A DNA stretch of 64,000 nucleotides from Amylostereum areolatum (lineage: Eukaryota; Basidiomycota; Agaricomycetes; Russulales; Stereaceae): NCBI GenBank assembly GCA_012932865.1, contig SAXG01000007.1, positions 310,001 through 374,000 of the forward strand. Reading direction: 5' to 3'. The position numbers and the translations under genes were made by a program. Positions 11,474-44,743 of this stretch are shown in pieces (position 1 is the stretch's first letter; the number at the start of each line of letters is the position of its first letter). Below the pieces are notes generated by a model. That model had not been told where the DNA came from. It made no database searches and worked only from the letters and a program-made list of their open reading frames with translations.

Positions 11474-15401
<3,928 letters not shown>

Positions 15402-18400: not shown

Positions 18401-18868
18401 CCGCCGTGCTAAGGGAAAGGTGCGCAGATTGGGGACTTGGGGGGTTTCTCCAGAGGCTTCGGGTTGTTTCGATTCCTCCACTCCACGCCCGCCTTGCAAT
18501 TCAGAGCAGCGTGCTCCGTGCGGGTGCCTCGTCGACGACGAGTCACCCCAGCCGGCCGGGGCAGCAGGAGCCGGCGACGGAGAGACGGAGGAATCGGTGA
18601 TCGCATCTCATATATGGGACCGAGGCGGACGAAACAAGCGCCCATAGATGAGTGTAGTTTAAATACAGAAACTCGCGTCGGTACGTGTTCTCTCTTACCC
18701 CCTCCTTTGCCCCTTCCCCTCCCTCGGGTTTCCCGCCTAATGCCATCCTTCCAGCTCCCATTCTCCATCATCTTCGCCTTCTAGCCGAGCGTTCCTCAAG
18801 TGCATCTACGAACAACTTCCTGGCTCGCCTCCTTCGTCCCATGGGCACAGCCCGCATCGCTCAGCACC
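15402..18868. other. Long gene-poor region
   Basis: About 3.5 kb with no recognisable gene. The longest frame (17243-17887, plus, 214 codons) lacks an ATG at its start and has no domain. The frames at 15956-16363 and 16746-17114 are likewise motif-free. The sequence just upstream of 18869 is pyrimidine-rich (18680-18780), as is common in front of fungal genes. The upstream SEC23 promoter should lie in the first few hundred bases. Confidence 0.45.
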
Positions 18869-19796
18869 ATGTCCTCCACCTCCTTTGACCTTCCAAACCT
18901 CCTCGATCCTCTCGCAGACTTTCCCCTGTTTTCTCCCTTCCCGGACGATATCGATTTCTCCGGGTGCGTTCTGGCCCCCCTCCATATCCAGCTCCACCTG
19001 ACAGTCCCCCTCCTCCTCCCCTCCAGAGCACCGCTCCTTGGCCTCTATAATGACCCCATCAATGCCCCAGCGCCCGAATTGGGCCGTTTTCTCGCCCCCC
19101 TTCCTTCTCTCTTTCCTGAGCAAGACCTGTACGTCCTCCTCCATCCTCCCTCTCCTCGCCCCCGTGACCCTTTCCCCCTCCCAGCTCCTTCTCGGATGTC
19201 CACCCACCGCTCGGCGTCAGCGGTGCGGCCGATCTTGTCGTCGGAGACGATACCCTGATACCGCCCCCCGCTCCTCGTCTGAAGGACCTCGACTCATTCT
19301 CCGACGGCACTGCCTTAGGCAGCTTCAACTATTCCCTCGCGTCCGAGCACGACATACCCATGTCCGTCGCGTTCTCACCCGCAAATCCCATGCGGTCCAT
19401 CGAGACATGGCGGACAGACGTCCAGCGCTGCCTGCGCGAGGAAGAAGAGCAAGCACGCTACTGCGTAGCGCAAGCGCTCAGCGGCAGACGTCGTCTGCCC
19501 ACGCCCGAGGTGGGGAACTTAGTTTTGTCTCGAATGTTACCTCTGAGGCGTCCTCGTCCAAGGAACCGGCGACCAAGCGTCGTCGTGTCTCTGAGCTCCC
19601 GTTCGTCCATGCCGTCATCGAGCCCTTTTTGCGCGCCGTCGCGGAGCGCGTCGCGTCGGCGCGCGCGGATGGCGTGGACGATGGCGGAGCCCACCATGAG
19701 CAGGGCGGCCGCGTCGAGCAGGGCCCGCGCGCGGCGCCGTCTGCCATGGCCATTGTCCGTCCGTCGTCTGCCCCTCCCGGTACAGACGTGGGGTAG
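18869..19796 (+). CDS. Hypothetical protein with basic KRRR segment, possible frameshift
   Basis: Three exons join cleanly. MSSTSFDLPNLLDPLADFPLF begins at 18869 and uses a GTGCGT donor at 18964. GAPLLGLYNDPINAPAPELGRF follows, then an exon starting SFSDVHPPLGVSGAADLVVG and running to REEEEQARYCVAQALSG. Between 19466 and 19500 the sensible reading moves by one base to a frame carrying ELSFVSNVTSEASSSKEP, ATKRRRVSELPFVHAVIEPF and a stop at 19796. Without the shift the frame gives an arginine/serine-rich tail ending at 19824, which looks like out-of-frame GC-rich sequence. The KRRR cluster may be a nuclear signal. No family recognised, so function is unknown. Confidence 0.5.
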
Positions 19797-20388
19797 CTGC
19801 GCGCTACCCCACCCCCAACTTTGAGAGCTGTGGTGAGCGTGGGTTTTGTTCATGCCTCTTTTGTTAGCCTTTCTGACGGTGACTCATTCCAGCAGATTTA
19901 GAAGTTGATCTTTAAAGGGCTATCATCAGGCTGTACAAGTATTCCTACAAACATAATTCAGAGCCGGCGGACTCTCAGTGTGACGCTGTATAGTAGATCT
20001 TCATGCCTCCGCCACCCCACCCACCCTCCCCCCTCCCTACGTAGGCCCTTCATGTATACTATGTATCTACTCTACTGGATCAACGACGGATTTTTTGGAA
20101 CCTGTGGCATTGTGGGTCCGTGTGTGCTCGGGTGTGTGCTAGGATGTGCGGACAATGAGGGCGTCGTCACCGTCTTGCCTCGTTTGGAAGGGGCAATGGC
20201 AATGGCACATCGGCATGACCCAATGACGGTGAGGGTAGATAAGATTAGATGGACAATGTTATCTAATCTTGACTCGGTCGTGAATTTTAGTAAGGCGTAG
20301 TAAGGCGCGGTCTTCAGTCAGCGATCTCTCCCTCCCTCCCTCCATTTCCTTCTCTTCATCACCCGGGTCCACATCGTGTAGCATAGAC
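19797..20388. other. Intergenic region upstream of NMD3
   Basis: No gene seen. It holds a perfect 10-bp inverted repeat (listed separately) and a pyrimidine-rich stretch (CTCCCTCCCTCC near 20330) just before the NMD3 start, which may be part of its promoter or leader. Confidence 0.45.
20241..20270. repeat. Perfect 10-bp inverted repeat with 10-base spacer
   Basis: AAGATTAGAT, spacer GGACAATGTT, then ATCTAATCTT. The arms are exactly complementary and could form a hairpin in DNA or RNA. It lies about 120 bp upstream of NMD3. It is AT-rich and lacks the length or flanking duplication of a transposon, so a chance or regulatory palindrome is more likely. Confidence 0.6.
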
Positions 20389-22349
20389 ATGGAATTTGTA
20401 CCAGCACCGGCGGTGCATCGCGTCCTTTGCGCGGATTGTGGTGCGTAGATCGAGAATCTAGGTGTAAGCTGTACTGATCATTTTCGGCAGGGACACCCAT
20501 CGTACCCAACTCGGCCAATCTTTGTGTGAACTGTCTGCGAAATACGTCCGTGGTTTTTCCTCTCCATCTCGACCCTTGTCCTGATCGGTATGCAGCGTCG
20601 ACATCACCGAAGGCATCCCAAAACAATGTGCGTTCTATCTGCCGCGAGGATGTTCGTTGGACTGACGATCTGACCGCCAGCATCTGTATCTTTTTGTCGT
20701 AATTGCGACAGATTCATGGCACCCCCAGCGCAATGGGTAATCGCAAAACCAGAGTCGCAAGAGCTCTTGGCCATCTGCTTGAAGAAGCTTAAAGGTCTCA
20801 GCAAAGTCCGATTGACGGAGGCGCACTTCATCTGGACGGAGCCCCATTCGAAACGTCTCCGGGTATCGTTGACGATCCAAAAAGAGGTGCGTGTCCTCCG
20901 TCTGTTTGGGACTATCGAGGCTGACGACGACGAAAGGTATTGACCTCCACCATCCTTGAACAAATTTTCGAGATCGAGTATCTGGTCCAACACGGCCAAT
21001 GTCCGGACTGCACCAAGCTCGCTGCGAAGAATACGTGGAAGGCGTTGGTCCAGGTCCGACAAAAAGTACCGCACAAGCGGACCTTCCTGTTCCTCGAGCA
21101 GCTCATCCTCAAGCACGGCGCGCAGAAGGACACAATATCCGTGAAGGAGGTCCGGGACGGTCTTGATTTCTTCTACAGCTCGCGGAGTCATGCACTCAAA
21201 ATGGTGGAGTTCTTGAACGGCGTGGTGCCTATACGGTAATCCCCTCGTATTCTTACATTCGTCGTTCCATGTCTGATAGAAGATATGTTGTACAGAACAA
21301 AGACTTCGGAGCGGTTGCTCTCGTCCGACACGCACTCCGGCACGGCGAATTACAAGTTCACCTACTCCGTGGAGATCGTGCCTATCTGCAAAGACGACCT
21401 CGTCGTCGTGCCGCCCAAACTCGCCCGGCAACTGGGCAACATCAACCCGTTGACCGTCGCGACGCGCGTCGGCAACTCCCTGCACCTCCTCGACCCGAAC
21501 ACGCTCCAATACTGCGAGCTCACGGCGCCGATCTACTGGCGCGCGCCGCTCGAGGCGCTCGCGCGCGTATCGGACCTCGTCGAGTTCACCGTGCTCGATA
21601 TCGAGCCCTCGGGCACGACGCGCGGGAAGTGGGTGCTCGCGGACGCGCAGGTGGCGATGTCCGGCGCGTTCCGCTCGACTGGAACGTACGAGGACGACGG
21701 GATGATGGACTACGAGAGCGCGGCGGCCGCGAGCCAGATCTACCACACGCGCACGCACCTCGGGGGGATTCTCCAGCCCGGGGACACCGTGATGGGATTC
21801 CACCTCAGCATCACCAACTTCAACTCGGACGACTTCGCCGCGCTGCCGCAGGACCGCCTCCCCGACGTCGTGCTGGTGAAGAAGGCGTACCCGAACAGGC
21901 GGAAGAAGACGCGGACGAGGAACTGGAAGCTGAGGAGTATCGGGATGGAGGCAGGGGAGGAGGGCGAGACGGGGGCCGCGCGCGGAGTCGTGGGGCGCGG
22001 GGGCGGGCGCGAAAAGCGGAAGGTGGAGGAGGACTACGAGCTGTTCCTGCGCGATCTGGAGGAGGATCCCGAGATGCGTTCGGCGGTCAACTTGTACAAG
22101 GCGGAGGCGGCGATGAAGAGCGAGAAGGCGGGCTCGGGGCTTGCGGGCGGGAAGACGAGGCGAAAGGCGCAGTTCGCGATGGACGTGGACGACAGTGCTC
22201 CCGAGGGGCAGATGGCGGTGGAGGAGGGCGGCGACGAGGAGGAAGAGGAAGAGGAGGCGGCGGAAGCGGATTTCCCGGAGGTCAAGTTGGACGAACTGTT
22301 GGACAACTTCGACGAGATGACGCTTGGGGACAACGTCGAGGAGGAGTAG
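20389..22349 (+). CDS. NMD3: Nmd3, nuclear export adaptor of the 60S ribosomal subunit
   Basis: Nmd3 binds pre-60S subunits in the nucleus and links them to the Crm1/exportin pathway. Exon 1 (20389-20440) begins MEFVPAPAVHRVLCADC, and the following exons give the CxxC zinc pairs CADC, CVNC, CRNC and CPDC. The family motif RNTVDITEGIPKQ is recovered using a GTCCGT donor. Downstream are MAPPAQWVIAKPESQELL, the YLVQHGQCPDCTKLA segment, the central domain (HTGTANYKFTYSVEIVPICKDDL-like region) and the eIF5A/SH3-like domains. The tail contains a run of glutamates and ends MTLGDNVEEE at 22349. Length is about 530 residues, close to the yeast protein. I see no frame break. A long antisense frame over this gene is a shadow caused by high GC. 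Confidence 0.93.
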
Positions 22350-22560
22350 TGTCGATATGCGTACCACATAGTAAACATATTTTTCAACTTATTCACCTTT
22401 GGCCCTTCATCGTAACCGGTGGCCCTGTGGCAAATGCGAGCAACGATCACATGACCTTACGCGAACAAAGGCGAACGCGTTTTGACCGGGCTTCGAATTT
22501 GAACCTGAACTTCATCCACACCTTCTCGCTTCCTCTCACGACCTCATCTACCCACGAATC
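22350..22560. promoter_or_regulatory. NMD3-separase intergenic region
   Basis: Only 211 bases separate the NMD3 stop from the separase start, and both genes point the same way. The separase promoter and the NMD3 3' end must share this space or overlap the neighbouring genes. No specific factor site can be assigned by eye. Confidence 0.4.
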
Positions 22561-25500
22561 ATGCCTGTCGCTTCATCGTCCAAAACTAAGGCCTTGCCGA
22601 CGCGCAAGCCAACCAGGAAGCCCCTTCCAGCGGCCGCCCAAATCACAACCGACGAGCTTGCGGACAAGCTCGCCACCGGGCTCACCCTCACTGCCAAAGG
22701 CAAAGCGAAGAAAGATGCGCCACCTGCGAAGAATGCGAAAGAGCAGACTCTGTCTGCTATGCGCGCCGTCAATTCCGCGTCGCAAGCCCTTACGGGCCTT
22801 GTGCAGAAGGGACGGGCGGATGGAGGGGCCGCGTTGGCTACCTCGGCGAGAAATGCGCTGGCGGAGCTGAGGGCGTTGAGTCCGGGAGAGGTCGACACGG
22901 AGAGGGCTGCGTCGAGTGTGGCTAGCAAGCTCGTCACTCTGGAGATGGTGCGTTCCGTTGTCGTCGAAGCTTGCTGTCTCTGACGCACCGGTCGTATAGC
23001 ATGTGCATGCGCTGGATATACTTTCAGACATGCATCCTACGCTCGTGGCCTTTTCGCAAGGTCATGCACCTCCCAAAGCCATCCCCCAAATGAAAGGCCG
23101 GGCGGCCGGCAATCAGCGAACCCCGCCGTTGACAGAACGGCTGAACCTGCTTTCCATCCCAGTTCCACCTTCAACATCTATCCTCGACGTGACACTGCTA
23201 TCTCTCATCTCAACGTTCCTATCCAATGTTATCGTTTCTGTATCCCATCTTCTCGCCGGACAACCCGCCAATGCACCCCTCGCCCAGCTTGCAACCATCT
23301 TACAGACCTCACCTTCGATCATGACTTGGGTACCCATCTGCGCTCAGCTCCCAGAGAAACACCGCGATACCCTCTTGACACGCATCTACAGCGCCCTCAC
23401 CAAATCCATAGGACACGCTGACGCCGATCCATCCACCATGTTCCGTATCCGCCATTACGCGTTGTCGTGTCTGCTGCTGACAAGCCCGATGATGATCCAA
23501 CCCGATATGTTTTGGGACCAAGCTATCAAGTTTGCGGTCACGTACGCGCGAGCGACGCCTGCGCTCTGGTTTAACGGCGAAAAGACACCTGACGCGGAGA
23601 GGGACGCGACGGCGCTTGTCATATCAGTTTTTTCCGACTTGCATGGTCGCGCGGAGGAAAGGGGGGACAAGGACGTGTTTCTTGATGGGAAGTCGTACCT
23701 TGCGTTTTGCGAGTACTGGTTAGGCTATGCTAAAAAGGTACGCGTCCTCGTACAGCAGCTGGGGGATCCATCCTGATATATGCTATATGTGCAGTCGGGA
23801 GAAATGCGCGCGCTCGACTATGTCGCGAGCCTTGTTCATTCCGTACAGCTGTCTTCGTCGCAACATTCGTCTTCCACGGATGTCCCGAGGCCAGACCCGT
23901 CGCCAATGCAAGTGGACGAGCCTGCTCCCTCGGTGCCTAGTCGATCCAGATCCGTCTCTCCGCACAAGAGGTCGCAATCCACTATGGTAGTATCGTTGGC
24001 CAAGATCTGTACGTCGTTCGTGCAAGGAACAGCCTTCTTTGAGGGGCTAGCCACCTTCGACGGTAATGCATTTTTAGCCGGGACTGTCCGAGTTCTGACG
24101 GTGCTTCTCGTGTAGGCTCGGAAACGGAACTGAAGACACGCTTTAATGAGATTTCGTCGGCTGTCCAGGCGTTCAAGCTGATCCTACCCCCACAAGAGTC
24201 GGAAGACGATGATCGCCCACGAGCATATAGCAAGACGCGTCGGGCTCAAGAAAGGTTGCGGCGTGCCGTTGTGCGATACCTCGGCACCCCATCCTTGTCA
24301 TCCGACCGTACGAAACCTACCAGAGCCTTCCTCACCGAGCTGGTGTCTGGGATGGAGCAGTCCCTAGATAAGGTATGGGAACATACATCCAACTGGATCC
24401 ATGACAAAGTATGCTAAATGCACTTTATCAGGAATCCACCTCGGACGACTTTACAGCTGTGCTGGATACCCTTTTCCTCCTCGCACGTACAACATTAGTG
24501 CCGAGCGATCCAGTGTCCAATGATACGGCATACGCTTTCCTATCTCGGGCCTGCGCCATCCTAGGATTGGAGCTGGACAACGCCCACGAGTACAAAAGCA
24601 AGATCAATCGTCCCACCAATGTCCCGGAGGACGTCTATGCCAACTATATTCGCTGTGTATCTGGCGCCTTCCACAACCTCGCTGGCGCGTTGTACCAGGC
24701 CGATCGTTACGGTTATGCTACCCGGTTCCTTCGACACGGATGTGTGTTGGGAAGTTTGGCCTTGCGCCTGGGGAGGGCATGCGGACTTTTCGTTGGCGAC
24801 GTGGAGGACCAGTCGAGTGCGAAGCAGATGGAAGCATGGAGGCAGCTGGAAGATCAGCTTACTCGTCGATGGGAGCTTCTCGGCGTTTGTTACTCAAAGA
24901 TTGGAGATCGCAAGGTAAGACTATATACCGTTGTACACCGGCTGGCGCTCATGCGAATCGCTTCAGCTTGCATACGAGGCGTTCGCCTTGTGCATAGCTT
25001 CCTATGCCTTTCCACGTTCGGTCGGGGAGTCCATCAGGACGGCGGGACCTAGTCAAGTTTTTTCGTCCTCGAGTTCGCTCAAGCAGCTCGCCGTCATCAT
25101 CGACAGGGTCACATACATGGCCGCATGCGAGCTCGGACGCGATCCCACGGAGGTTTCTCTGAAGCGAATGGTCGGCGACATCACCCTGGAGGACGAACAT
25201 GATCGTCTCTGCGTTGGCGGTGCAATCCTGGAACGCCAGCTGCAAAGCCTCGAGGGGAGCCAGTGGAAAGAGAGCGTTGAGAAGGTCGTCTCAGCACTGC
25301 TGTTCGACCTACTCTCCCTCTACGACCCGAAAACCCGTCCGATGAGGAGGGCCGCCGTTGTACTCAAGTGCCTCGAGTTTACGTACTACTCAGCCAAGGC
25401 CGAAGGATGCATGCGTGGTTACGTTGCCTTGCATTGGAGCGAGCTTGCCGAGGAGATTGAATCCTTACTGGCGACACAGGTACGTCGTTCACCTCCGCTG

Positions 25501-25670
25501 AATAAAACATGCATTGACGTTGGGGCGTAGAAATACGGCGAAGACGCGCAACTGGCCCGCTTCCAGCCGCATTATCAAGCCATCTCCCACCTGTGGTTGG
25601 CCTTGCATGCCCACCGTCGACAGGATCCAAGTCAGTCCGACGTAGCTATCAAACACGTTCAGGAGGCCTG
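22561..25670 (+). CDS. ESP1: Separase (Esp1/Cut1), 5' half, cut by a retrotransposon
   Basis: N-terminal helical-repeat part of separase, the protease that cleaves cohesin at anaphase. The start is MPVASSSKTKALPTRKPTRK at 22561. Exons continue through HALDILSDMHPTLVAFSQGH, FRIRHYALSCLLLTSPMM, TAYAFLSRACAILGLELDN, YVALHWSELAEEIESLL and an exon starting KYGEDAQLARFQPHYQ at 25531. That exon ends abruptly at GTTCAGGAGGCCTG, where the retrotransposon begins. Reading on into the element reaches a stop at 25837-25839, so the allele as sequenced can encode only the N-terminal half, without the catalytic domain. The 3' half resumes at 30698. Assignment to separase rests on the downstream C50 domain and the unbroken exon logic across the insertion. 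Confidence 0.85.
25666..25670. repeat. Target site duplication (left copy)
   Basis: GCCTG immediately before the left LTR, repeated at 30698-30702 just after the right LTR. A 5-bp duplication is the usual signature of Ty1/copia integrase. Confidence 0.92.
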
Positions 25671-25983
25671 TGTCGAACTGTACGCAGTAGTAGGAGACCC
25701 GAGAACTAAGAACCAAATGAGTGTGTATTCTCCACAGGCAGCAATAGTGCCGGTGGAGTGCATACCTAAGAACCAAATGAGTGTGTATCTAAGGTATGTG
25801 GTTAGTGACTGTGGTAGTGGGTATAGGAGCGTAGGATAACTCACTCTCCACAGGCAGCAATAGTGCCGGTGGAGAGGAGGAGACGCGACGACGCGCAAAG
25901 AGAACGAGTGCTAACGTAATCTAGTATTATGTAATGTATGTACAGTACGGCAGTCTAAGGTCGAATAGAATCTCATGTCGACA
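25671..25983 (-). repeat. LTR (3' LTR of the element)
   Basis: 313 bp, read as identical base for base to 30385-30697. It contains two copies each of a 23-bp motif beginning CTAAGAACCAAATGAG and of a 29-bp hairpin motif (25730-25758 and 25846-25874). Read in the separase direction it supplies an in-frame stop at 25837-25839. Confidence 0.96.
25730..25874. repeat. Duplicated 29-bp hairpin motif inside the LTR
   Basis: The motif starts CTCCACAGGCA, ends TGCCGGTGGAG and occurs at 25730-25758 and 25846-25874. Its ends pair as CTCCAC/GTGGAG and, after one mismatch, GGCA/TGCC around a short loop. The same pair is present in the other LTR at 30444-30472 and 30560-30588. It could be an enhancer-like or RNA-structure element; the function is unknown. 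Confidence 0.7.
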
Positions 25984-25995
25984 CCCTCCCTCGAG
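25984..25995 (-). other. Polypurine tract of the retrotransposon
   Basis: On the element strand, CTCGAGGGAGGG directly abuts the 3' LTR. Its position and purine content fit the plus-strand primer of LTR elements. Confidence 0.6.
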
Positions 25996-26027
25996 CTGAC
26001 TGCTCGTCTGAATGAAAGAGTCCTACC

Positions 26028-29000
26028 TCAACCCGAATCAGGATCAAGTACGCCCAGCAACACCCTAAACTTCTCCACCTTCACACGACCCAAGGCCTTC
26101 GTGAACGCGTCAGCAATCATCTCGTCCGTCGGACAGTAGATCAAAGTGGCATCTCCAGTTTCGACCGTTTGGCGAATGAAGTGGTAGCGGATGTGAATGT
26201 GCTTCGTGAGGGAATGAAATGAACCGTTCTTGGCCATGGAGATTGCGCTCTGGTTGTCCGCAAACAAAGTGGTGGGTTCCTGCTTGAACAGGAGAGGAAA
26301 GAGCTCCGAAATGAGAAAACGGAGCCAGATAAGCTCCTTCGCGGCGTGCGTCATCGCGACGTACTCTGCCTCCGTAGATGAAAGTGTGATAACTTTCTGC
26401 TTCTTCGAGCTCCATGAGACGGCACCGTTCCCGATGAAGAACGCAAATCCCGAAAAGGAATAGCGATGCTTTTGGCTGGAGTAGTCGGAATCTGAGAACC
26501 CGATAAGCTGATTGACGTGCTCTGTTCCACCGAGAACCAGACGAAGGTTGAAGGTGTACTTGAGATATCGAAACACACGTTGAAGTGCCCGCATATGCGT
26601 TGTGTGCGGCTTCTCGAGGAATTGGGAAAGAGTGGTGACTGCGTGGGTGATGTCGGGACGTGAGCCAACAGAGACGTACATGAGTGCGCCGACGCCTTGG
26701 CGATATTTGGCATGCTCGTAAGAGTTCAGGACCTTTGGCGACACTGCATGTGAGCTGTAGCTGAGATCGACACCGGGTTCCATAGGTGTCACAAGTGGAC
26801 TTGCATCCTCTAGTCCCATGCGTCCGAGGATGTCCTTGATATATGCCTGCTGCCCGATCGAGACCGTTCTGCGCTGCAAGTCGCGGGTGATGTGGAATCC
26901 GAGGAGCCAGTTAACTGGTCCAAGGTCCTTGACCTCAAAGTGAGTGTTGAGGTCCGCAAGTAGCGCGTCGACAAGTTCGTCGCGCGGTGCAACAATGGTG
27001 AAGTCATCGGTGGCTGCGGCAACAATGACGTACTCGGTCTTGTCCTCGCTCTGCCAGTAGAACACGGCCTGGTCGGCGTTGCACACACTATACCCAATCT
27101 CGATGAACACAGAGCGCAGGAATTGGTACCATGCGCGCCCTCCCTGCTTGGTGCCATACAGGCCCTTGCGGAGCTTTGCAACGAGGCGGTGGCCTTTGCG
27201 GTCAGAGCCTTGGAGAGCGAAGTCGGGTCGGAAGTCCTCGTACTTCGGTGGAAGCTGCATGTAGATGTCGTCGTAGATGGGTGCATCGAGATAGGCATTC
27301 TTGACGTCGGCCTGGCGAATGACGTCGCCTTGGATAGCGGCAGTAGCGATGATGGTGCGGAGGGATTGAAGTCGGACGACTGGCGCGTACGTCTCATCGA
27401 AGTCGACAAGTTTCCGTTGACCGTTTCCGCCTGCGACAAGCCTCGTCTTGTAGTCGCTGATATCGCCGTGCTCGTCCCGCTTGTACTTGAAGACAAAGTG
27501 GCAGGGTATGACATTGGCGTCGGGGGGTGCCTCGACGATCTCCCACGTCTCGAGTTTCTCGATCTGGGCAATTTCGCGCTCAATCGAGCTCCACCAGAGC
27601 TCATTCTCTCCTGTACGCGATAATGCCTCGCTAAGCGAGCGTGGCTCGCCGCTTTGGCTGACGGCGAGGGCGTAGATAGCGGGAATGTCCGCCTCGTCAA
27701 CACTGAACCCGGCAGGGTCCAGATCCGTCGTGTCCGACTCAAGGACGGCTACTGCTCCGGTGCGTCGTCCTTCCTTGTATGAGCCCAGCGGCGGCGCAGC
27801 GTTGCGCTTTCCACGGCCGTAGTTCTCGTCCGCTGGTATGAGGCCGGCATCTATGCGTGTTCGGCGCTCGGGTGCTGGCTCTGGACCTGGTTCGGGACTG
27901 GAAGTTCGTGTCGGCGGCAGGTCGGTGAGTGGTGACAGCGGAGGTGATTCGTCGTCTTTTGTGAACTGCTTGGCCTCGACAGGCTTCGATGCGGGAGCGG
28001 GAGCGTGCGGAGCGCTATCCTCGATCTCCACGGTCCCTCCCTCGGTCTGCACGGTCTCGGGTTTGACCGCATCGGCATACGAACGGTAGACGTCGCGCTC
28101 GACCGAGATTCGATTCTTCCCGGGCCAGTAGATCCGGTAGCCTTTGGATTCCTTGTCGCGGCCAACAAAACGGGCCTCGACAGCGCGCGGATCGAGCTTC
28201 TTCGCTTTGAGAATCTTGACCCAAACTTTATCACCCCAGGTCATCAGCCCCGAAAGGTCAGGCTTCTTCCCCGTCGCGACCTCGTGTGGGGTCCGCCCGT
28301 CAGGTAGTGCGCGCGTGGGTGTGCGATTGCGCATGTAGCCGGCGTAGCGTTGTGCTTCGGCCCACAGGAACTTGGGTAACCCGGAGGCGGTGAGCATTGC
28401 TCGCGCGTCATTGACGATCGTGAGGTTGAGCCGCTCGGCAGCGCCGTTGGCTTGCGGGGAGTCGTGCGTGGTGAAGTGGTGGATGGTGCCCTGCTTTGCA
28501 GTGTGCGCCTTCATCCGTTTGTTATTGAACTCGCCGCCGCGGTCGCTTCCAAGGATCTTGATCCCCCTCGGGTTGCGGTGCATTTTCAGCCATGCCTCGT
28601 ACTCAATGTACTTGTCGTAGGTGTCCGACTTCTTCGCTACAAATTCGTCCTCGATCTCGTGACTGCTGAGGTCGAGCAGGCGGAGAGCGTACTTGGCACC
28701 ACCGAGCGAGGTAACCTCGGCCGGTCCCCAGATATCGGTGACCACCTTGTCGCCGTACTCCTTGTATTCCTCCCGTGAGGGGCTCTCCTGGGGGAAAGGT
28801 AGGCGGACAGCCTTGGCCTGGGTGCAGATATCGCACGGCTCGGGTTTTGACTCGAGGTTGAGGTCAATCCCGGTGACAGCTCCGTTAACCACCATCTTGC
28901 GAAGAGCATCGTGGTTGATGTGGTTGGCCTTCCGATGCAGCTCGGAGATGGTCATCTTCGTAGATGCGGCGGCCGCGGATTGAGCGGGTACGCGCCGAGT

Positions 29001-30380
29001 TCCATTCGCAACACGGTAGAGTCCGTTTCGGAGCGGAATGCGCCCAATGACGAGCCGTTCAGGTCGAGGCGTGCGGATGGTGCACTTGCCGTCTTCGGTT
29101 GTCGTCGAGAAACCCTTCTCGTCCATGACCGGAATTGAGATCATGGTGTAGACCGCGCCCGGAATGTAGAGCGCGTTGTGGAGGGTGACCAAGGTAGGGC
29201 TCTTGCCGCTTCCCATCGGGAGCTCGAGCTGAACATTGCCTTGCCCGACGACCTTGAGTGAACCGCCTTGAGCAGTGACGACAAAGTCCGATTCGACGTC
29301 GTGATAGGTCACGAACTTCGAACGGTCGGGGCATATGTGGTCGGTCGCGCCGGAGTCCATGATGACGCCGTAATACGGGGTCGACGTTGCGGCCGCAATA
29401 GCGGCAGGGGGGGCGGCGTCGAACGAGACACCAAGCGCGACGCTTTGCTTCGTCTCAGAGGACGATACCGCGTTCGCTTTTTCCTTCTTGCGCTTCCAAG
29501 GTGCTTGGTCTTGCTTCGGACCACCTTTGGAATAGCAGTCGGCAAGGACGTGGCCGTCGCGGTCGCAGTTTGAGCAGTGCTTGCCATTGGCCTTTGACTT
29601 GCCCTTCGCGCGTCCGCCTCGTCGACCCTTCGCTTCCGCGTTGAGGGCCGCGTTGGCCTGCGTTTCGTCCGCATTCTTGTCCGCCATGCGCGAGTCGTAC
29701 GCTTCGTAGACTTGCGCGACGATAAGATCCGGCGTGATGATGCTGCCAGTCACGCGTGCGACGGTGTCGAGCGTCGTGACGGTTGTCCGGAATGAGTCGG
29801 GGAGTGCGGTGCGGATGTCGGACGCAAAAGTAGCGTCGTCGACGGGGGCTCCCATGAGAGCGAGCTGCTCGCGTAGGTTCGTCATTTGCGCGATGATGGG
29901 ACGGGGGTCGGAGTCTTCAGGGACGCGTAACGCGCGCATGCGGCGTGCGACCTCCTTGTGCATGTCGACACCCTTGTTCTCGTGGAGTTTGCTGAGGGTA
30001 GACCATAGGGCGGCGGCGGTAGGCGCGTTCTTGATTTGCGTGAGAGTGGTGGCACTGACTGACTGGTACACCAACTCGCGAACGGCCGCTTCTTCCGCCT
30101 CGTAGTTCTCCCACTCGTCCTGGATGTCGTCGACCGTGCTCTCGTCCAGCGGTGACACGCTCTGACCTCCTCCCGCATAGAACCAGTCCCCGTTCTCGTC
30201 CTGCATGATCTCCTTCGGTTTTCTGGCTGTCCCGTTGACGTGGCGACGGAGCTTCCGTTTTGCGAACGCGTTGAGCATGACATCCTTGTACGTGTTCCAG
30301 TTGGAACCATCGTCTCGGAGCTTCTCAACCTTGAAGCCTTTGTAGTTGTCTGTTGCCATGTCGTACGGTCCAGGGCCCAT
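26028..30380 (-). CDS. Copia gag-pol polyprotein (1,450 codons, intact)
   Basis: A single frame encodes Gag (N-terminal ~260 residues) with a CCHC knuckle (CSNCDRDGHVLADC), then an aspartic protease (GVIMDSGATDHICP). The integrase has a zinc finger (HRKANHINHDAL .. CDICTQAK) and the catalytic D..D..E region (VVTDIWGP, GSDRGGEFNN, SPQANGAAERLN). Reverse transcriptase contains FVFKYKRDEHGDISDYKTRLV, QADVKNAYLDAPIYDDIY and a catalytic ATDD in place of the usual YVDD. RNase H contains GFSDSDYSSQ, SSTEAEYVAMTHAAKELIWL and LFADNQSAISMAKN. No stops or frameshifts. The first ATG lies within 5 bases of the LTR and overlaps the primer site; a second ATG (MATDNYKGF) at 30359 may be the true start. Confidence 0.96.
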   Translation of the reverse strand: MGPGPYDMATDNYKGFKVEKLRDDGSNWNTYKDVMLNAFAKRKLRRHVNGTARKPKEIMQDENGDWFYAGGGQSVSPLDESTVDDIQDEWENYEAEEAAVRELVYQSVSATTLTQIKNAPTAAALWSTLSKLHENKGVDMHKEVARRMRALRVPEDSDPRPIIAQMTNLREQLALMGAPVDDATFASDIRTALPDSFRTTVTTLDTVARVTGSIITPDLIVAQVYEAYDSRMADKNADETQANAALNAEAKGRRGGRAKGKSKANGKHCSNCDRDGHVLADCYSKGGPKQDQAPWKRKKEKANAVSSSETKQSVALGVSFDAAPPAAIAAATSTPYYGVIMDSGATDHICPDRSKFVTYHDVESDFVVTAQGGSLKVVGQGNVQLELPMGSGKSPTLVTLHNALYIPGAVYTMISIPVMDEKGFSTTTEDGKCTIRTPRPERLVIGRIPLRNGLYRVANGTRRVPAQSAAAASTKMTISELHRKANHINHDALRKMVVNGAVTGIDLNLESKPEPCDICTQAKAVRLPFPQESPSREEYKEYGDKVVTDIWGPAEVTSLGGAKYALRLLDLSSHEIEDEFVAKKSDTYDKYIEYEAWLKMHRNPRGIKILGSDRGGEFNNKRMKAHTAKQGTIHHFTTHDSPQANGAAERLNLTIVNDARAMLTASGLPKFLWAEAQRYAGYMRNRTPTRALPDGRTPHEVATGKKPDLSGLMTWGDKVWVKILKAKKLDPRAVEARFVGRDKESKGYRIYWPGKNRISVERDVYRSYADAVKPETVQTEGGTVEIEDSAPHAPAPASKPVEAKQFTKDDESPPLSPLTDLPPTRTSSPEPGPEPAPERRTRIDAGLIPADENYGRGKRNAAPPLGSYKEGRRTGAVAVLESDTTDLDPAGFSVDEADIPAIYALAVSQSGEPRSLSEALSRTGENELWWSSIEREIAQIEKLETWEIVEAPPDANVIPCHFVFKYKRDEHGDISDYKTRLVAGGNGQRKLVDFDETYAPVVRLQSLRTIIATAAIQGDVIRQADVKNAYLDAPIYDDIYMQLPPKYEDFRPDFALQGSDRKGHRLVAKLRKGLYGTKQGGRAWYQFLRSVFIEIGYSVCNADQAVFYWQSEDKTEYVIVAAATDDFTIVAPRDELVDALLADLNTHFEVKDLGPVNWLLGFHITRDLQRRTVSIGQQAYIKDILGRMGLEDASPLVTPMEPGVDLSYSSHAVSPKVLNSYEHAKYRQGVGALMYVSVGSRPDITHAVTTLSQFLEKPHTTHMRALQRVFRYLKYTFNLRLVLGGTEHVNQLIGFSDSDYSSQKHRYSFSGFAFFIGNGAVSWSSKKQKVITLSSTEAEYVAMTHAAKELIWLRFLISELFPLLFKQEPTTLFADNQSAISMAKNGSFHSLTKHIHIRYHFIRQTVETGDATLIYCPTDEMIADAFTKALGRVKVEKFRVLLGVLDPDSG

Positions 30381-30384
30381 AACC
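30370..30384 (-). other. Primer binding site of the retrotransposon
   Basis: GGTTATGGGCCCTGG on the element strand, directly after the 5' LTR. The position is right for tRNA priming. Which tRNA it matches, or whether it is an internal fragment, cannot be settled by eye. Confidence 0.5.
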
Positions 30385-30697
30385 TGTCGAACTGTACGCA
30401 GTAGTAGGAGACCCGAGAACTAAGAACCAAATGAGTGTGTATTCTCCACAGGCAGCAATAGTGCCGGTGGAGTGCATACCTAAGAACCAAATGAGTGTGT
30501 ATCTAAGGTATGTGGTTAGTGACTGTGGTAGTGGGTATAGGAGCGTAGGATAACTCACTCTCCACAGGCAGCAATAGTGCCGGTGGAGAGGAGGAGACGC
30601 GACGACGCGCAAAGAGAACGAGTGCTAACGTAATCTAGTATTATGTAATGTATGTACAGTACGGCAGTCTAAGGTCGAATAGAATCTCATGTCGACA
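30385..30697 (-). repeat. LTR (5' LTR of the element)
   Basis: 313 bp, the same as the left copy with no difference that I can find. As the 5' LTR it should hold the element promoter, which reads leftwards. Confidence 0.96.
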
Positions 30698-30702
30698 GCC
30701 TG
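30698..30702. repeat. Target site duplication (right copy)
   Basis: GCCTG, matching 25666-25670. After it the separase exon continues TCGCATCCTGAAGCCATTG. Confidence 0.92.
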
Positions 30703-33700
30703 TCGCATCCTGAAGCCATTGGTGGCCGCCTCCGGTGCACCACCGAGTCCGACCGCAGTCAGGAAGTCACCCATTGCTCCAAAGAAGGGAAAAGGCCGTG
30801 CAGTGCCCACCCGACCGGCGAAGACGCCTGCTCGTAGGCCACCTCCGAAGACCCCGAGGAAGGCTTCTGCTGCTAAACAACCGCTGGGTACGTATAACCT
30901 CCCGACATCACGCTTTCGTCGTGGCTGACCCTTGGTTCCTATAGAATCTGATTTGATCCAACAACCTCGCGCATCGAGGCCAGAAACCGACGGACACGAC
31001 TTTTACGATTTCAGACATCTTTTTGATTTATTGCGTAGGTGGTACTTTCCATCTGCAATGCGCATTCTCACGCCTTCTCCCAGGGATGAATATTGATCTC
31101 ATGGGATTCCTAGGCCACGTACTGGCCAAAGTACAGCTACTACACATAACACGCTACTTATGTGAACGCCATACACCGCACGCACACGACGGTGAGCTCC
31201 TGGAATCGTGGCGTCAAAATGTAACATGCTGACCGCTCGTTCAGAATATATGGTGTCCTCCATTGACCTCGCTTACGAATATTTAAAATTGGGCAAACTC
31301 AGGAAGGCTGGCAGCATCTTCAATCGTACGCTGGCACTGTTTAGGAGCGGCGTGTCTTCTGATGAGTCGCGCATTTTATTCTTGCTACGACACACGGAAT
31401 CGTTGGCGGTAATGGGTGATGTGCAACAAAGGTTGGTTCCAAGGCATCTCTACCGTGACAGTAGCTGACAGGGTTTCATATGCAGTACCAATATGTATTC
31501 CGAGGCAGCCGCGTTATCGGACACGCTGCTAAATGACGACAAAGATTTGTCTACCACAGACCGTATCCGGTCCCGTGTTGGACGTCTAGAGCGCGCAGCC
31601 CTTGCTGCAAGCGTCTTCGCAGAAGTTCAGCTGACCAAGGTGGGTTACTTTTCGTCGGCAGAAACGCCGCATGTTCTCACCAATCCTGCCAATAATTTTG
31701 GTATACTTAGGATGAACCTACGGCCGCTCTCACTTGTTTACTTCAATCCCTTCGATTATGGAACAGGGCCATATCCACTTTGGCTCGTCTCACCACACCA
31801 CCGGCGAGCATTCCGGAAGAGTCAAACCCATTTCAGACATCTGGAGCAGCTTCTCCCACCAAGGAAAGCATTTCCGTCATACCAGATTCAGGATCCGTAC
31901 GCCCAAAAGCAACGTTCAAAGGGCTGGAATGGCAAGTTTCGATGGGTCTCCTCAGCACCCTGCTCTCGCTCTCTCAACTTTATTTCGCCCGGGGATCCGC
32001 ACGAGAGGCCGAATACTTTGCTCAACAGGCGGAGGAGCTGGCTGAGTCCCTTAACGCACCAGCGATGCTTGGCTGCGCCCTGGCGCGGAAGGGCGAAATC
32101 CAGCTTCATCTTGGTCAGTTGGAGCAGGCATACCAAAGTCTGGCGAAAGCTTCGGAGGCGCTTGACGAGGTCGTGGGGCCGGAGATGGCGGATGTGCAGC
32201 GATTGTTTGCGGATTATCATGCACGGAGCATGAAGGAAGGGGATGCTCAGCAGATGTATGTTGAGGCGGCCGCGTTGTTGGAGGACCTTGGAAAGAGACT
32301 ATCGTCGGTTGATGGGTTGGGACTAAGGTATGTGCATCTCTTGGACAAACTTTACTTGATTCTAACTTTCGTTTGGTAGACGCTCGAGTGTGCCCATGCA
32401 GAACGCGATATACGCGCAGGCTAGTGATATGCTAGCGCCGAAGCTCCTGTCTTCGGTCCTGCGTCGACATAGTGAGTGTTCGTTGACGAAGGGTAGATGA
32501 ACGCTGACATCTGGGGGCTAGTTTGGCTTCTAAGGGACGACCTTGGGGATGAGTATCAGACGCTCCTTAAGAAATTATCCGACCTGCCGCCATCTGCAGA
32601 CATGAAGGTGAGGACTGAGGTGGCTGGCGATTAGTACTATTACATGGCAACTCATTCTCTACTTTCAGGCCGAAGAATACTCTCTGATTGCAAGACTGAC
32701 TCTGCACGATGCCTTTGACCATCTCCGTGAAGATATCTTCCTTGGCAGTGTATCTGACTCTGGTAGGTCTGGCAATTTTGATCACGTACAACCCCGTCTC
32801 ATGGTTGGGTGTAGTAATCACGTTGCCTATGGGCATCTCGGGCGAGAAGACGTCCGCGACTGCCACAAGCCAGGAGATAGGCCGTCTGCTCGGCGAAGCG
32901 GATTCTCTCTTTTGGTCCAATCTTGCAGCCATCGCACGTCGTGGCAAAGTGAACGATGTAAGGGACGCTGCCGTGTCATTGGCATATGTCAGATCCCTGC
33001 AGACGTCGTTGGGAAGGGACAATGCCGATGGTCCCGTCCTTGTTGCGAACCTTCTTGGTGGGTGTTCCCGCGTTGGTTCTAAAGCCTTGAAGTTTACTTT
33101 ATGTTCAGATGCCAGTGTGGCCATAACACTACAGCGAGAGATGCTAGAGGTCATCCAGAACAAGTTCCCAGCTTTCGCGGCGATGGACGACCTTCGCTGG
33201 CCGTCTTCTGACCCTCCCACACTTCATCCTAAACGTCGTCTCCCGGTCACATCACAGGCCGACTCGCCGTTTGGCTCCTCTGATAGTGACGATGAGCCCG
33301 ATGTAGAGGCATCTTCGCTTCGTGAGTACTGGGAGGCCGTTCGAACCAAGTATGCCTCGCAGGTCTTTGGCTCGAGCGATCTCTCTTCTTCTCGAGTGGA
33401 TTCTCTTCCCGAAAACTGGACCGTTATCCACATATGCCTAACCGAGGACAAGAACTCCATGTTCGTCGCACGTCAGCGGGCAGGACAAAGCCCACTCGTA
33501 TTCTGTGTCCCGCTCAAAGAAAGCCGAAGGGAGGGTGAAGGGGAAGAGCATCTTACCGTCCAAGACGCCATCAACGAGATGAAGGAGATTGTACGACTGA
33601 ATGACGAAACAACCAAGCAGGCCGTCCATGTGAAGACGCAGGATAAGGACGCGAGGGCAGCGTGGTGGGCGGAACGGATGGCGCTGGATAACCGCCTTCA

Positions 33701-35019
33701 AGAGCTCCTGGAGAACATCGAGTTCTGCTGGCTAGGCGCATTCAAGGTGGGTTTAACCCTCGCTTACATGCACCGTCGCTCACTCTACGCCTAGACCATT
33801 CTTAGCGAACCAGCCGATGTTCCTTTGGACGTCGTTGCTGACCTTCGCACACGACTGGATAAAGTCTTCAAACGTGGATTAGGTGCTCAAGAAAAGAAGC
33901 TAAAATCAAAGATCCACTTGGACGACGCGCTCCTCAGATGTTTCTCTACCTTGCCTCCCAAGTGTCGCGACGAAGAGCTCGAGGATCTTGTCTACTTCAT
34001 CCTTGACATTTACCAACTCCATGGCACGGCAGTCGCTATATCTGAGGTCGATGTAGATCATGTCGTGGTCGACCTTCGCAACGCTCTCGAGGAGCACAGG
34101 GCGAAGACAAAAGCTCGAGTAGTACCTCAGAAGGATAGTCACACATTCCTGATCCTGGACAAGAACATACAAGGTTTACCCTGGGAATCTATCCCTATCC
34201 TTCGCGGCCGGAGCGTCAGTCGTATCCCAAGCCTTCAATTCCTGATCGACCGCCTTGACATGGTCAAATGGAAGCATCGCAACTCAACACCTGCAACAAA
34301 TGTCAGCTCGCCCATAGACCGCGCGCATATCGACGCTTCGAATGCGTTTTACGTTCTCAATCCTAGCGGCGACCTTACAGCGACCGAGAAACGGTTCTCC
34401 GGATGGTTGAAGAGGATGGATGCTGTGGGCTGGGAAGGTTTAGTCGGCAAGGTACCCAGCGAACAACAGATGGTAGATGCCCTGTCCAGGAAAGACCTAT
34501 TTATGTAAGTACCTTTGGTTGTTTTCCTCGACTAGATACTTACACTATCTTGTAGTTACTTTGGCCACGGCGGGGCGGAACAATATGTGCGGTCCCACAA
34601 AGTTCGACATCTCCCTCAGTGCGCCGCTACAATGCTTTGGGGATGTTCGTCTGGGCTCCTGAAGGAGATGGGCGAGTTCGACCGCATGGGGACTCCGTAT
34701 AGCTACATGCTAGGAGGATGGTGAGCATACTTTTATACCCACCATTCATCACTTGCTCACCTTCGCATATGATGCCGACAGCCCAACATTGGTAGCAAAT
34801 CTCTGGGACGTGACGGACCGGGACATCGACAAGTTCTCCCAAGCTGTATTCGACAAAATGGATCTGACACCAGAGAGCGTACACCGACAGGCACAAAACC
34901 CTCGACGTCGAGGTGGGACGTCCATCGTTGAAGCTGTTGCGCAATCCCGCGACGCCTGCAAATTGAAGTACCTTACGGGGGCATCACCCATAATCTACGG
35001 TATCCCTTTTTACTTGTGA
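30698..35019 (+). CDS. ESP1: Separase (Esp1/Cut1), 3' half with C50 protease domain
   Basis: If the element and one GCCTG are ignored, the split exon reads EACRILKPLVAASGAPP across the junction in frame, followed by a basic proline-rich linker (RPAKTPARRPPPKTPRKAS). Helical repeats follow (SLSQLYFARGSAREAEYFAQ, YQSLAKASEALDEVVG). The C-terminal peptidase C50 domain contains the catalytic histidine in FIYFGHGGAEQY (codon 34566-34568) and the catalytic cysteine in MLWGCSSG (codon 34644-34646). It ends with YLTGASPIIYGIPFYL at 35019. The whole protein would be about 1,900-2,000 residues (estimate), normal for fungal separase. Both catalytic residues are intact. Detached from its own promoter and N-terminus, this half is probably not expressed properly, although transcription from the element has not been excluded. 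Confidence 0.9.
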
Positions 35020-35426
35020 TATTCTATACTTACGAATGTCATGTCGAATGTGAATTATTCGGCTTCGCCTTATATCAGACAATGTTCCGTGCTCTCCCGT
35101 ATATGTTGTTGCAGGTGATCCAATGTCATCCCCCGACCAGACTCCTTCCCGCCGCTTCTTCAAACACCGCCAATCCCCCCTCACCACCTAGTGCTCGAAG
35201 GGTTAGGTGGGAGGACGCTGGCAGTGCTCGAAGCGGCGGAAAGGAATCTGGATGTAACCGAGCCTGAGTTGATGCTTGTAGTCTGACTACACAAGGTTCA
35301 CGTGTTCACGTGTTCACATGTTCAGCGCTTCAAGCTTCAAGTCTTGTTCATCTTCAAAGCCGTCATAAGTAGTCTTGTTACCCAGTAATACTCCTCCCCC
35401 GCCGGTCCGAAAATCTGAAGCTCTCC
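35020..35426. other. Intergenic region between separase and the first APH gene
   Basis: No gene. An alternative separase end, by splicing from ATCTACG at 34999 to an acceptor near 35115, would add about 28 residues but is less like the family C-terminus. The region holds a short GTTCA/TTCAAG repeat cluster, listed separately. Confidence 0.4.
35296..35346. repeat. GTGTTCAC tandem repeat and TTCAAGC repeats
   Basis: GTTCACGTGTTCACGTG is followed by TTCACATGTTCA and by CTTCAAGCTTCAAG. Similar TTCAAG or GTTCAACG runs recur near 43160, 43612, 50605 and 55770, always between genes. Confidence 0.5.
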
Positions 35427-37012
35427 ATGTCTCCCGTGACCTACTTGTTTCACTTTCGATTACCCGGACGTCAAGTGTATCGGGGCATCGAGATCATTAA
35501 CACACCCATATCACCATGGGCCACAAGCCACGCGGAGACGAACAAAACGATGAATGACACCGTCAAAGCGATTTCCGACTCAAGGACGCGTCTGGTCGAT
35601 TTCGGGGCGCTCAAGAATGCGGTGGAAGAGCATATGAAAGAAGGCTGCGTCTCGATGGAGTGGGTTGTAGAGGGTGGTGCCAATCAGGTCTTCCTTCTCG
35701 TCTCGTCTTTTCGGTTTACCTCTTTCTAACTGATGCCTTCAGATATATCTCGTCCAACTGGAAAGTGGACGAAATATTCTTGCGCGACTTTCCTTTTCCT
35801 ACCCCTATGCAGCCAACTTTGGCGAGCAGTTTAAGATCCAGGAAGAATATGACCGCGAGCGGCTGCCAGCCCGTGCGCTCGGAGAGGTACGATAGATGAC
35901 GGCAGAACATCCTGTGATTACTGTCATAACTGATACGGGCTTTAGGTAGCTGCTATCCTCTATGTCAAGCAAAACACGAATGTTCCCGTGGCTGCCATCT
36001 ACGGGTACAATCTCAGCCCTAAGAACCCTGTCGGGACCACGTATATATTACAAGAACGCGTAAGCTACACGGTGGCGATCGTGCTATACCTGGCTTCTAA
36101 CGATCTCCAAAGATAAAAGGCGATGTCCTGTCGCAACGCTGGTTTACCATGAGCTTCGAGCAACGTTCAAGAGCTGTTGCTTCGTTCACAGATCACCTGG
36201 GCCAGATTTTGTCTCTTAGGTTCTCGGCGTTTGGCTCGCTTGTCCTCGAAGACGGGGAAATCGTCGTCGGTCGTCAGATCCCTCACCTGGACACACTATC
36301 CCGCTACTATCCCGTAACGGATTCTGGGCCATGGCCAGCCGATCAGCCTTTGGCATTTCTAGAGGCACGAGCAATCAGAGAATATCTTTGGCTCAACAGT
36401 CATGGCGGCCATCAGCTCTTCACAACTCATCGTAATGAATCATACCCGTCGGAAGACCAAAGCAAGACGCTGCCGGCATTCATCGACTTCTCATACCGTA
36501 TTTTTCGTCTGGTTCAGGATGCCCACACGCTGTACCCCCTTCCCAATCACTTGCACAGGCCGACTCTGATGCATGGTGATCTTCATTTCACCAATGTCTT
36601 GGTCTCCCAGGAGGACCCCGGTGTGGTCTCCGGTATCGTCGACTGGGAACATTCGTCCGTTGTTCCACTTTGGGTGGCTTATAATGTTCCAGAAATGATA
36701 TTGGACACGCCCTACACTCCTGAGGAACGGAAAGCCGATAACGGCAAACTTCGCGCTGTGTTTTGGGAAAGTTTGTCCGCTGCTTGTCCGGACCTCGACT
36801 CCGTAATCCACCCCGGGGACAGCGCCATGGCCTCAAACTTTCAAGCCCTTCGCCTTTTGACGAGGTTCACGACCAGCGGAGTTGCGTTATTTTACTCATG
36901 TGACGGGATGACGCAGATGCTTTCTGATCTGCAACAATATACTCGGGAGAATGGGACGAACGCACAATGGGCGATTGACTACATCGACGAACTCATTGCT
37001 CTCTTTAACTGA
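35427..37012 (+). CDS. APH-like phosphotransferase (kinase-fold), copy 1
   Basis: Four exons (35427-35687, 35743-35886, 35946-36059, 36113-37012) give 472 residues. The fold is the aminoglycoside-phosphotransferase/choline-kinase type. An N-terminal lobe with SMEWVVEGGANQIYLVQL and NTNVPVAAIYGYN precedes the catalytic loop MHGDLHFTNVLV and the metal-binding GIVDWEHSSVVPLW. This family phosphorylates small hydroxyl compounds or acts as a pseudo-kinase; the substrate cannot be told from sequence. Three related copies lie at 45161-50436 with the same exon lengths (144 and 114 for exons 2 and 3), so the family spread by duplication after these introns were in place. No defects. The HxDxxxxN and D of the GIVDW motif are present, so catalysis is plausible. 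Confidence 0.88.
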
Positions 37013-44193: not shown

Positions 44194-44367
44194 ATGGCTG
44201 TCTTTTCTATGAGTCTTTCATCCTGCGACGTTCCCCGTAAGACGCCACAGATGGTCGTTCACAGGTTGATTTCATGTGTTGACTTACACCTCCTGTAGTC
44301 AACTTCACCAAATGTACAAACTCCGGCTGCCAATACAACAACACTTACAAGAGGGCTGGTTACTCAT

Positions 44368-44655
44368 CAGGAAAAACCTCCCTTACTAAAAATCTACTAA
44401 TTAGAGGGGGACCTTCCTAATTCCCTGTTCCCGCTGCCAACCTGCAAGGCACTACGTCAACGTAGGTCCCTGTCACCCTTCTGGCCTCAACTATGTATTT
44501 GAAGTGCAAATATGAGGTCAATGTCGACGACGGTGCATCGAAATGTGTACGGGGTTTTGTGAGAATAGAGCCCGTTAGTTCACTTTAGGAAGGTCCCCCT
44601 CTAACTAGCGCTAATTTGCTGGATTTGTTGATTTTAGTAAGGGAGGTTTTTCCTG
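44368..44655. mobile_element. hAT-like MITE, 288 bp
   Basis: The left end starts CAGGAAAAACCTCCCTTAC and the right end is its reverse complement. Further in, AGAGGGGGACCTTCCTAA on the left is matched by TTAGGAAGGTCCCCCTCT on the right, so the inverted repeats are long and bipartite. The flanks TTACTCAT and ATGCTCAT agree at 6 of 8 bases and fit the 8-bp duplication of hAT elements, whose ends are typically CA(G)..(C)TG. It has no coding capacity, so movement would need a transposase elsewhere. Confidence 0.75.
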
Positions 44656-44743
44656 ATGCTCATGCGGAGACCCAAGGTGTTGGGGACTTGTCAATAGCCA
44701 GCCGTCGGGAACCGGCACCTCTACCTCGACCGCACAAGATAAC

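Follow-up and report, generated by a model that had tools for sequence, protein, structure and literature searches.

The stretch of DNA analysed here (the window; 64,000 nucleotides, contig SAXG01000007.1 of assembly GCA_012932865.1, positions 310,001 to 374,000 of the forward strand) comes from the basidiomycete Amylostereum areolatum. On its plus strand it carries a gene for separase (peptidase C50; ESP1, cut1, bimB), and one exon of this gene is interrupted by a complete Ty1/copia long terminal repeat (LTR) retrotransposon lying in the opposite orientation. The features of the gene and of the element are itemized in Table 1.

The element and the interrupted separase gene

The element bears the marks of a Ty1/copia LTR retrotransposon. 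Its two LTRs match one 313-base query end to end at 100%, and the element begins with TG and finishes with CA. The five bases GCCTG stand directly outside both ends as a target duplication, and a primer binding site and a polypurine tract adjoin the LTRs. These features, together with the open gag-pol frame, bear out the preliminary description of this locus, which had reported two LTRs that read the same, GCCTG at both ends and an intact gag-pol frame in a complete copia element. Each LTR also contains two copies of a 30-base segment (CTCCACAGGCAGCAATAGTGCCGGTGGAG plus the neighbouring base), which can form a hairpin through its CTCCAC and GTGGAG ends.

A profile scan of the gag-pol frame gave the Pfam domains in the order Retrotran_gag_2, Pol_BBD, gag_pre-integrs, rve, SH3_retrovirus and RVT_2. 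The Retrotran_gag_2 match covers residues 74-247 of the frame. The rve match (residues 557-653) precedes that of RVT_2 (residues 957-1214, 147.7 bits), placing the integrase upstream of the reverse transcriptase; the rve match is weak, at 25.1 bits against a curated cut-off of 32.6. A CCHC knuckle at residue 282 and the DSG of an aspartic protease at residue 355 are recognizable as motifs only. No separate RNase H match was returned by the Pfam scan of the frame. The active-site motif of the reverse transcriptase is ATDD and not of the YVDD type, yet the RVT_2 domain is still matched, and in the 60 relatives scanned, out of 120 listed, ATDD was likewise the most frequent word of its kind, whatever its place in the protein.

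The primer binding site GGTTATGGGCCC is complementary to the anticodon arm of an initiator-type tRNA-Met. The complementary word occurs at 18 places in the assembly, and ARAGORN predicted a tRNA-Met at two of the four loci examined.

The Gag, the integrase before the reverse transcriptase, the single frame of ~1,460 residues and the LTRs with TG..CA are all shared with the Ty1/copia elements of Agaricomycetes. Among the best 120 of 3,041 matches to the reverse transcriptase region the top one is a metagenome protein with 58% identity, and the nearest of those listed that carry fungal names are from Hypsizygus marmoreus, Mycena sanguinolenta and Mycena venus ('Pol polyprotein from transposon TNT 1-94'). 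No difference from these elements was seen beyond the ordinary divergence of a family, the ATDD motif being frequent in near relatives too.

Table 1. Positions of the retrotransposon and of the separase gene in the window
Feature	Position	Strand	Remarks
Ty1/copia LTR retrotransposon, complete	25671..30697	minus	5,027 bp
Left LTR (3′ LTR in the element's sense)	25671..25983	minus	313 bp; 313/313 identical to right LTR
Right LTR (5′ LTR in the element's sense)	30385..30697	minus	313 bp
Target duplication GCCTG, left	25666..25670
Target duplication GCCTG, right	30698..30702
gag-pol open frame	26028..30419	minus	1,463 codons stop to stop; gag, Pol_BBD, gag_pre-integrs, rve, SH3, RVT_2
Primer binding site	30373..30384	minus	GGTTATGGGCCC; adjoins element's 5′ LTR (right LTR)
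Polypurine tract	25984..25992	minus	GAGGGAGGG; adjoins element's 3′ LTR; seen in sequence
Separase gene	22561..35019	plus	2,130 codons
Separase, N-terminal part	22561..25670	plus	Exons 22561-22947, 23000-23737, 23795-24062, 24116-24372, 24432-24914, 24967-25479, 25531-25670; hand model, GT-AG introns
Separase, C-terminal part	30703..35019	plus	First exons 30703-30887, 30945-31034, 31084-31191, 31245-31431, 31486-31639, 31711-32327, 32380-32471
Separase, C-terminal part, remaining exons		plus	32522-32607, 32669-32762, 32815-33057, 33109-33746, 33795-34504, 34556-34720, 34782-35019 (TGA 35017-35019)
Peptidase_C50 domain	33444..34827	plus
Catalytic His codon	34566..34568	plus	FGHGG; residue 2001 of full count
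Catalytic Cys codon	34644..34646	plus	LWGCSSG; residue 2027 of full count
TAA in left LTR	25837..25839	plus	Closes sense frame after 984 residues
ATG near end of right LTR	30689..30691	plus	In frame with downstream separase exons (1,206 residues); start use hypothetical

Separase is essential in fungi; in model organisms it cleaves cohesin and is needed for the separation of chromatids. The model of the A. areolatum gene was built by hand from GT-AG introns, and its final exon was corrected against two relatives. It comprises 21 exon pieces (the interrupted exon being counted twice) and 19 introns of 48-71 nt, every one of them GT-AG. A model of the final exon with an intron at 35000-35114 was dropped, the proteins of Amylostereum chailletii and Artomyces pyxidatus both ending in IIYGIPFYL. 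The C50 family (PF03568) is matched on two exons at 1.8e-27 and 6.6e-62, and at 1.6e-113 across the locus. In its C50 domain, its catalytic His and Cys residues, its long helical N-terminal part and its length of ~2,130 residues the protein resembles other separases. It differs from them in that the A. areolatum allele is broken in codon 929.

The element sits in that codon antisense to the gene, an orientation that the preliminary description does not give. With the element and one GCCTG removed the frame closes: 2,786 nt (including the left GCCTG) and 3,607 nt give 6,393 nt, or 2,131 codons with the stop. With the element in place, the sense frame continues past codon 928 for 56 further residues before the TAA within the left LTR, and ends at a total of 984 residues, upstream of the C50 domain that starts from ~33444. 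The hand-built model thus agrees with the preliminary description, according to which the element cuts a separase exon that is otherwise in frame and the allele stops before the protease domain. The interrupted allele is probably a null, predicted to give at most the 984-residue N-terminal piece without the protease. An old pseudogene was considered and rejected; the other exons, the introns and the His and Cys codons are all present in order.

The separase of A. chailletii (P0121, from a 27,987-bp contig) continues without a break through the site as HVQKACRILKPL. It starts after the first 336 residues of the model and differs from it at three internal exon boundaries. Identity is ~97% on both sides of the site (580/595 before it, from residue 337, and 1166/1199 after it). 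The N-terminal part and the protease form one continuous frame that is broken in the A. areolatum allele and whole in A. chailletii. Relatives were taken as the best 120 of 522 proteins; excluding A. chailletii, 112 of the 119 listed align continuously over the site, and 114 of the 119 have at least 1,500 residues, 112 of these aligning over it. The possibility raised in the preliminary description that separase might end naturally at this point is therefore contradicted, as A. chailletii and 112 of the other 119 continue past it.

Directly upstream of separase lies NMD3 (20380-22349), the last exon of which is 100% identical over 350 residues to that of A. chailletii. In the latter species P0121 and NMD3 are presumably on the same contig, both being found on one of 27,987 bp.

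Other copies of the element and an empty site

A search of the assembly with the LTR gave 11 matches on five contigs. Three other complete copies, on contigs C2, C1 and C56, differ from the separase copy at 0, 7 and 15 of 5,027 positions, respectively. Each has an identical pair of LTRs and the same frame open to its end, and each is flanked by a 5-bp duplication of its own (GAAGA on C2, GGGTG on C1 and TTTCT on C56). Where the LTRs differ between copies the change is present in both LTRs of a copy, as expected if the two were reverse-transcribed from a single template. Judged from these copies, the family appears to be low-copy and recently active. A fifth, older copy on contig C134 (243570-257245) is ~1% diverged and is split by other inserted sequence, also within the LTR.

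The absence of differences between the LTRs of the separase copy (0/313) gives a 95% upper age of ~0.4 to 4.8 million years, at substitution rates of 1.3e-8 and 1e-9 per site per year. As a proof of youth the LTR pair is weak by itself, since 313 bp bounds the age only loosely. At the same two rates the absence of differences from the copy on C2 (0/5,027) gives ~0.02 to 0.3 million years, and the earlier description of the element as very young stands better on this comparison than on the LTR pair.

Contig C114 carries a second match to the left flank of the C2 copy. There, this flank (279 bp, 2 mismatches) joins directly to the right one (5,937 bp, 16 mismatches), with a single GAAGA and no element. 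The surroundings are colinear as well: C2:1095000-1114309 corresponds to C114:56122-76760, the alignment comprising six stretches of 95.6-100% identity separated by further differences in length. The simplest reading would be that C114 is a remnant of the other haplotype, so that the C2 copy, identical to that in separase, is probably present in one haplotype only. Some ~7.2 kb are found on C114 only (61122-68325) as the copia element is found on C2 only; with several such insertion differences these are probably two haplotypes. The C2 copy itself may interrupt the first exon of a possible carboxylesterase (C2:1101087), for which the PF00135 match is weak (E 0.035, below the cut-off).

The flanks on C2 and C114 differ at 29 of 8,998 positions in three of the six aligned stretches; this count leaves out a gappy stretch of 1,788 bp (34 mismatches), one of 470 bp (3) and one of 2,265 bp (0). 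Over all six stretches 66 of 13,521 alignment columns differ. At the lower of these rates ~16 differences would be expected in 5,027 bp and none was observed (Poisson 9e-8, or 3e-4 if no more than half of the sites can vary). Because the two copies differ at 0/5,027 positions and the flanks at 29/8,998, the common ancestor of the separase and C2 copies is probably younger than the split between the C2 and C114 haplotypes, unless gene conversion has kept the copies alike.

Origin and likely consequence of the insertion

The insertion is very probably a recent copia event that has produced a probable null allele of separase in one nucleus of a clonal heterokaryon, the other nucleus keeping an intact allele. 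A low-copy, recently active Ty1/copia element, reverse-transcribed from an initiator-type tRNA-Met primer, would have integrated in antisense, with a staggered cut of 5 bp, in one exon of the single separase gene that the assembly shows, and a sense message from that gene would meet its stop in the first LTR. The new insertion would fall in one nucleus and, in an asexually multiplying lineage, would stay there. Intact separase would be supplied by the other nucleus of the heterokaryon, its allele having dropped out of the assembly with the removal of heterozygous contigs. We infer that the isolate holds an intact allele, that the interrupted allele is recessive and that it would be lethal for a nucleus on its own. 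By analogy, the empty allele on C114 at the site of the identical C2 copy supports a heterozygous insertion in separase.

What is published on the fungus fits such a history. The isolate was obtained in Heilongjiang, China, in 2017 from females of Sirex noctilio, and the genome report states that contigs and scaffolds recognized as heterozygous were taken out and that, of 290 BUSCO genes, 37 were both complete and present in duplicate (PMC7227769). For S. noctilio in north-east China one genotype only is described, the heterogeneous IGS-BD, which is widely distributed across five continents, and the same account gives vegetative reproduction as predominant or exclusive in northern China (PMC8704056). 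Amylostereum is described as heterothallic, A. areolatum being more clonal than A. chailletii (PMC6106070).

A search of the assembly for a second separase locus, as had been proposed at the outset, was run with the C50 family, with both flanks as DNA and with the peptide of exons 6-7. It found none, though heterozygous contigs had been removed from the assembly beforehand. The genome searches score the best candidates only, and a query of window positions 12500-22500 missed its own place, so absences of this kind are not exhaustive. Given the purge and the reach of the search, a single separase locus in the assembly does not show that the organism is without an intact copy; since the heterozygous contigs were removed, the intact allele is expected to be missing.

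Several points weigh against a sheltered null in one nucleus. The intact separase allele was not found in the assembly, nor was an allelic contig seen for either of two other parts of the window. Among the other three complete copies, just one had an examinable allelic counterpart in the assembly; for C1 the flank has no second place there, and for C56 it is repetitive. C114 could instead be a recent segmental duplication. Finally, in Marasmius oreades transposition is described in monokaryons and none during dikaryotic growth (PMC9674265). If that pattern held here, a lethal insertion would have arisen in an unsheltered stage. The two cases are alike in that transposon insertions tell the nuclei of a basidiomycete apart, and differ in that the families named as active in M. 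oreades monokaryons are hAT, Mariner and LINE (PMC9674265), whereas in A. areolatum a copia element has entered a gene essential in model organisms.

It is unlikely that the insertion is confined to a minority of nuclei, as a somatic or culture event that was kept by the assembler. The identity of the separase and C2 copies (0/5,027 differences) would allow a very recent event of this kind. The C2 site, however, shows heterozygous copies of the same element in the assembly, and assemblers usually keep the majority sequence.

Very unlikely is an insertion present in all nuclei with separase now made in two pieces, the N-terminal one terminating within the left LTR and the catalytic C-terminal one translated from a new plus-strand transcript, the two pairing in the manner of Drosophila SSE and THR. 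The C-terminal piece could start at the ATG donated by the end of the LTR (30689), which is in frame and would give 1,206 residues, or at the next natural in-frame ATG (31086), which would give 1,109, and no second separase was found in the assembly. In Drosophila, separase is reported to be divided between SSE and THR, which associate in a complex (PMC4847790, PMC4626109), and in the human and yeast enzymes the N- and C-terminal regions are reported to interact (PMC4626109). The break falls, as in Drosophila, between the N-terminal and catalytic parts, but SSE and THR are described as two working genes (PMC4847790), whereas A. areolatum has one gene with a young insertion, and expression of a C-terminal piece is hypothetical. 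Moreover, in yeast the whole N-terminal region is seemingly required for catalysis (PMC4626109). The element is antisense to the gene, so its own promoter would point the other way, the ATG in the LTR has C at −3, and the published purge already accounts for a single allele. Were two pieces nevertheless made, this would be a gene fission in progress, replaying the split of SSE and THR.

Less probable still is an error of assembly at the junctions. Identical 5-kb repeats do occur elsewhere in the genome, and the published assembly included gap closing. The two halves of separase nevertheless lie on either side of the element, correctly ordered and oriented, and the 5-bp duplication is perfect, and for this reason a false join is very unlikely; the GCCTG is moreover private to the separase copy and differs from GAAGA, GGGTG and TTTCT. 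It is likewise very unlikely that the element is spliced out as one large intron from an allele that still makes separase, for despite donor-like GTATGT and acceptor-like CACAG words on the plus strand of the LTR this would need the in-frame removal of ~5 kb from a gene whose 19 introns measure 48-71 nt.

With separase broken in one nucleus and sheltered by the other, a vertically carried and mostly asexual woodwasp symbiont would appear to have, in one of its nuclei, a null allele of a cell-cycle gene that is normally essential. Dikaryons are expected to shelter recessive lethals, and the A. areolatum case can be typed by polymerase chain reaction at one site. If the allele is shared across the clone the affected nucleus would be unable to live alone and the two-nucleus state would be obligatory; half of any sexual spores should then fail, so that sheltered load in clonal heterokaryons could be tested directly. 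The locus also illustrates how an essential gene can appear in a haplotype-purged assembly as a broken allele only. Young copia insertions in host genes are events of a known kind, and the interest here lies in a clean, typeable and probably lethal allele in a clonal symbiotic fungus. No report of this insertion was among the papers listed in searches of the literature.

Other features of the window

A repeat of ~295-315 bp with inverted-repeat arms lies at 44362-44677. It has at least 39 other near-complete places in the genome at 97-100% identity (40 of 98 candidates scored), and it looks like a recently amplified short non-autonomous element of the kind termed miniature inverted-repeat transposable elements. 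Rfam gave no matches in the window. Three frames matching APH-type phosphotransferases (PF01636) are found within 13 kb (36101-37012, 45161-46063 and 47578-48579), two on the plus strand and one on the minus strand. At 59626-61398 a frame of 590 codons with matches to the E1-E2 ATPase and HAD hydrolase families corresponds to a P-type ATPase.

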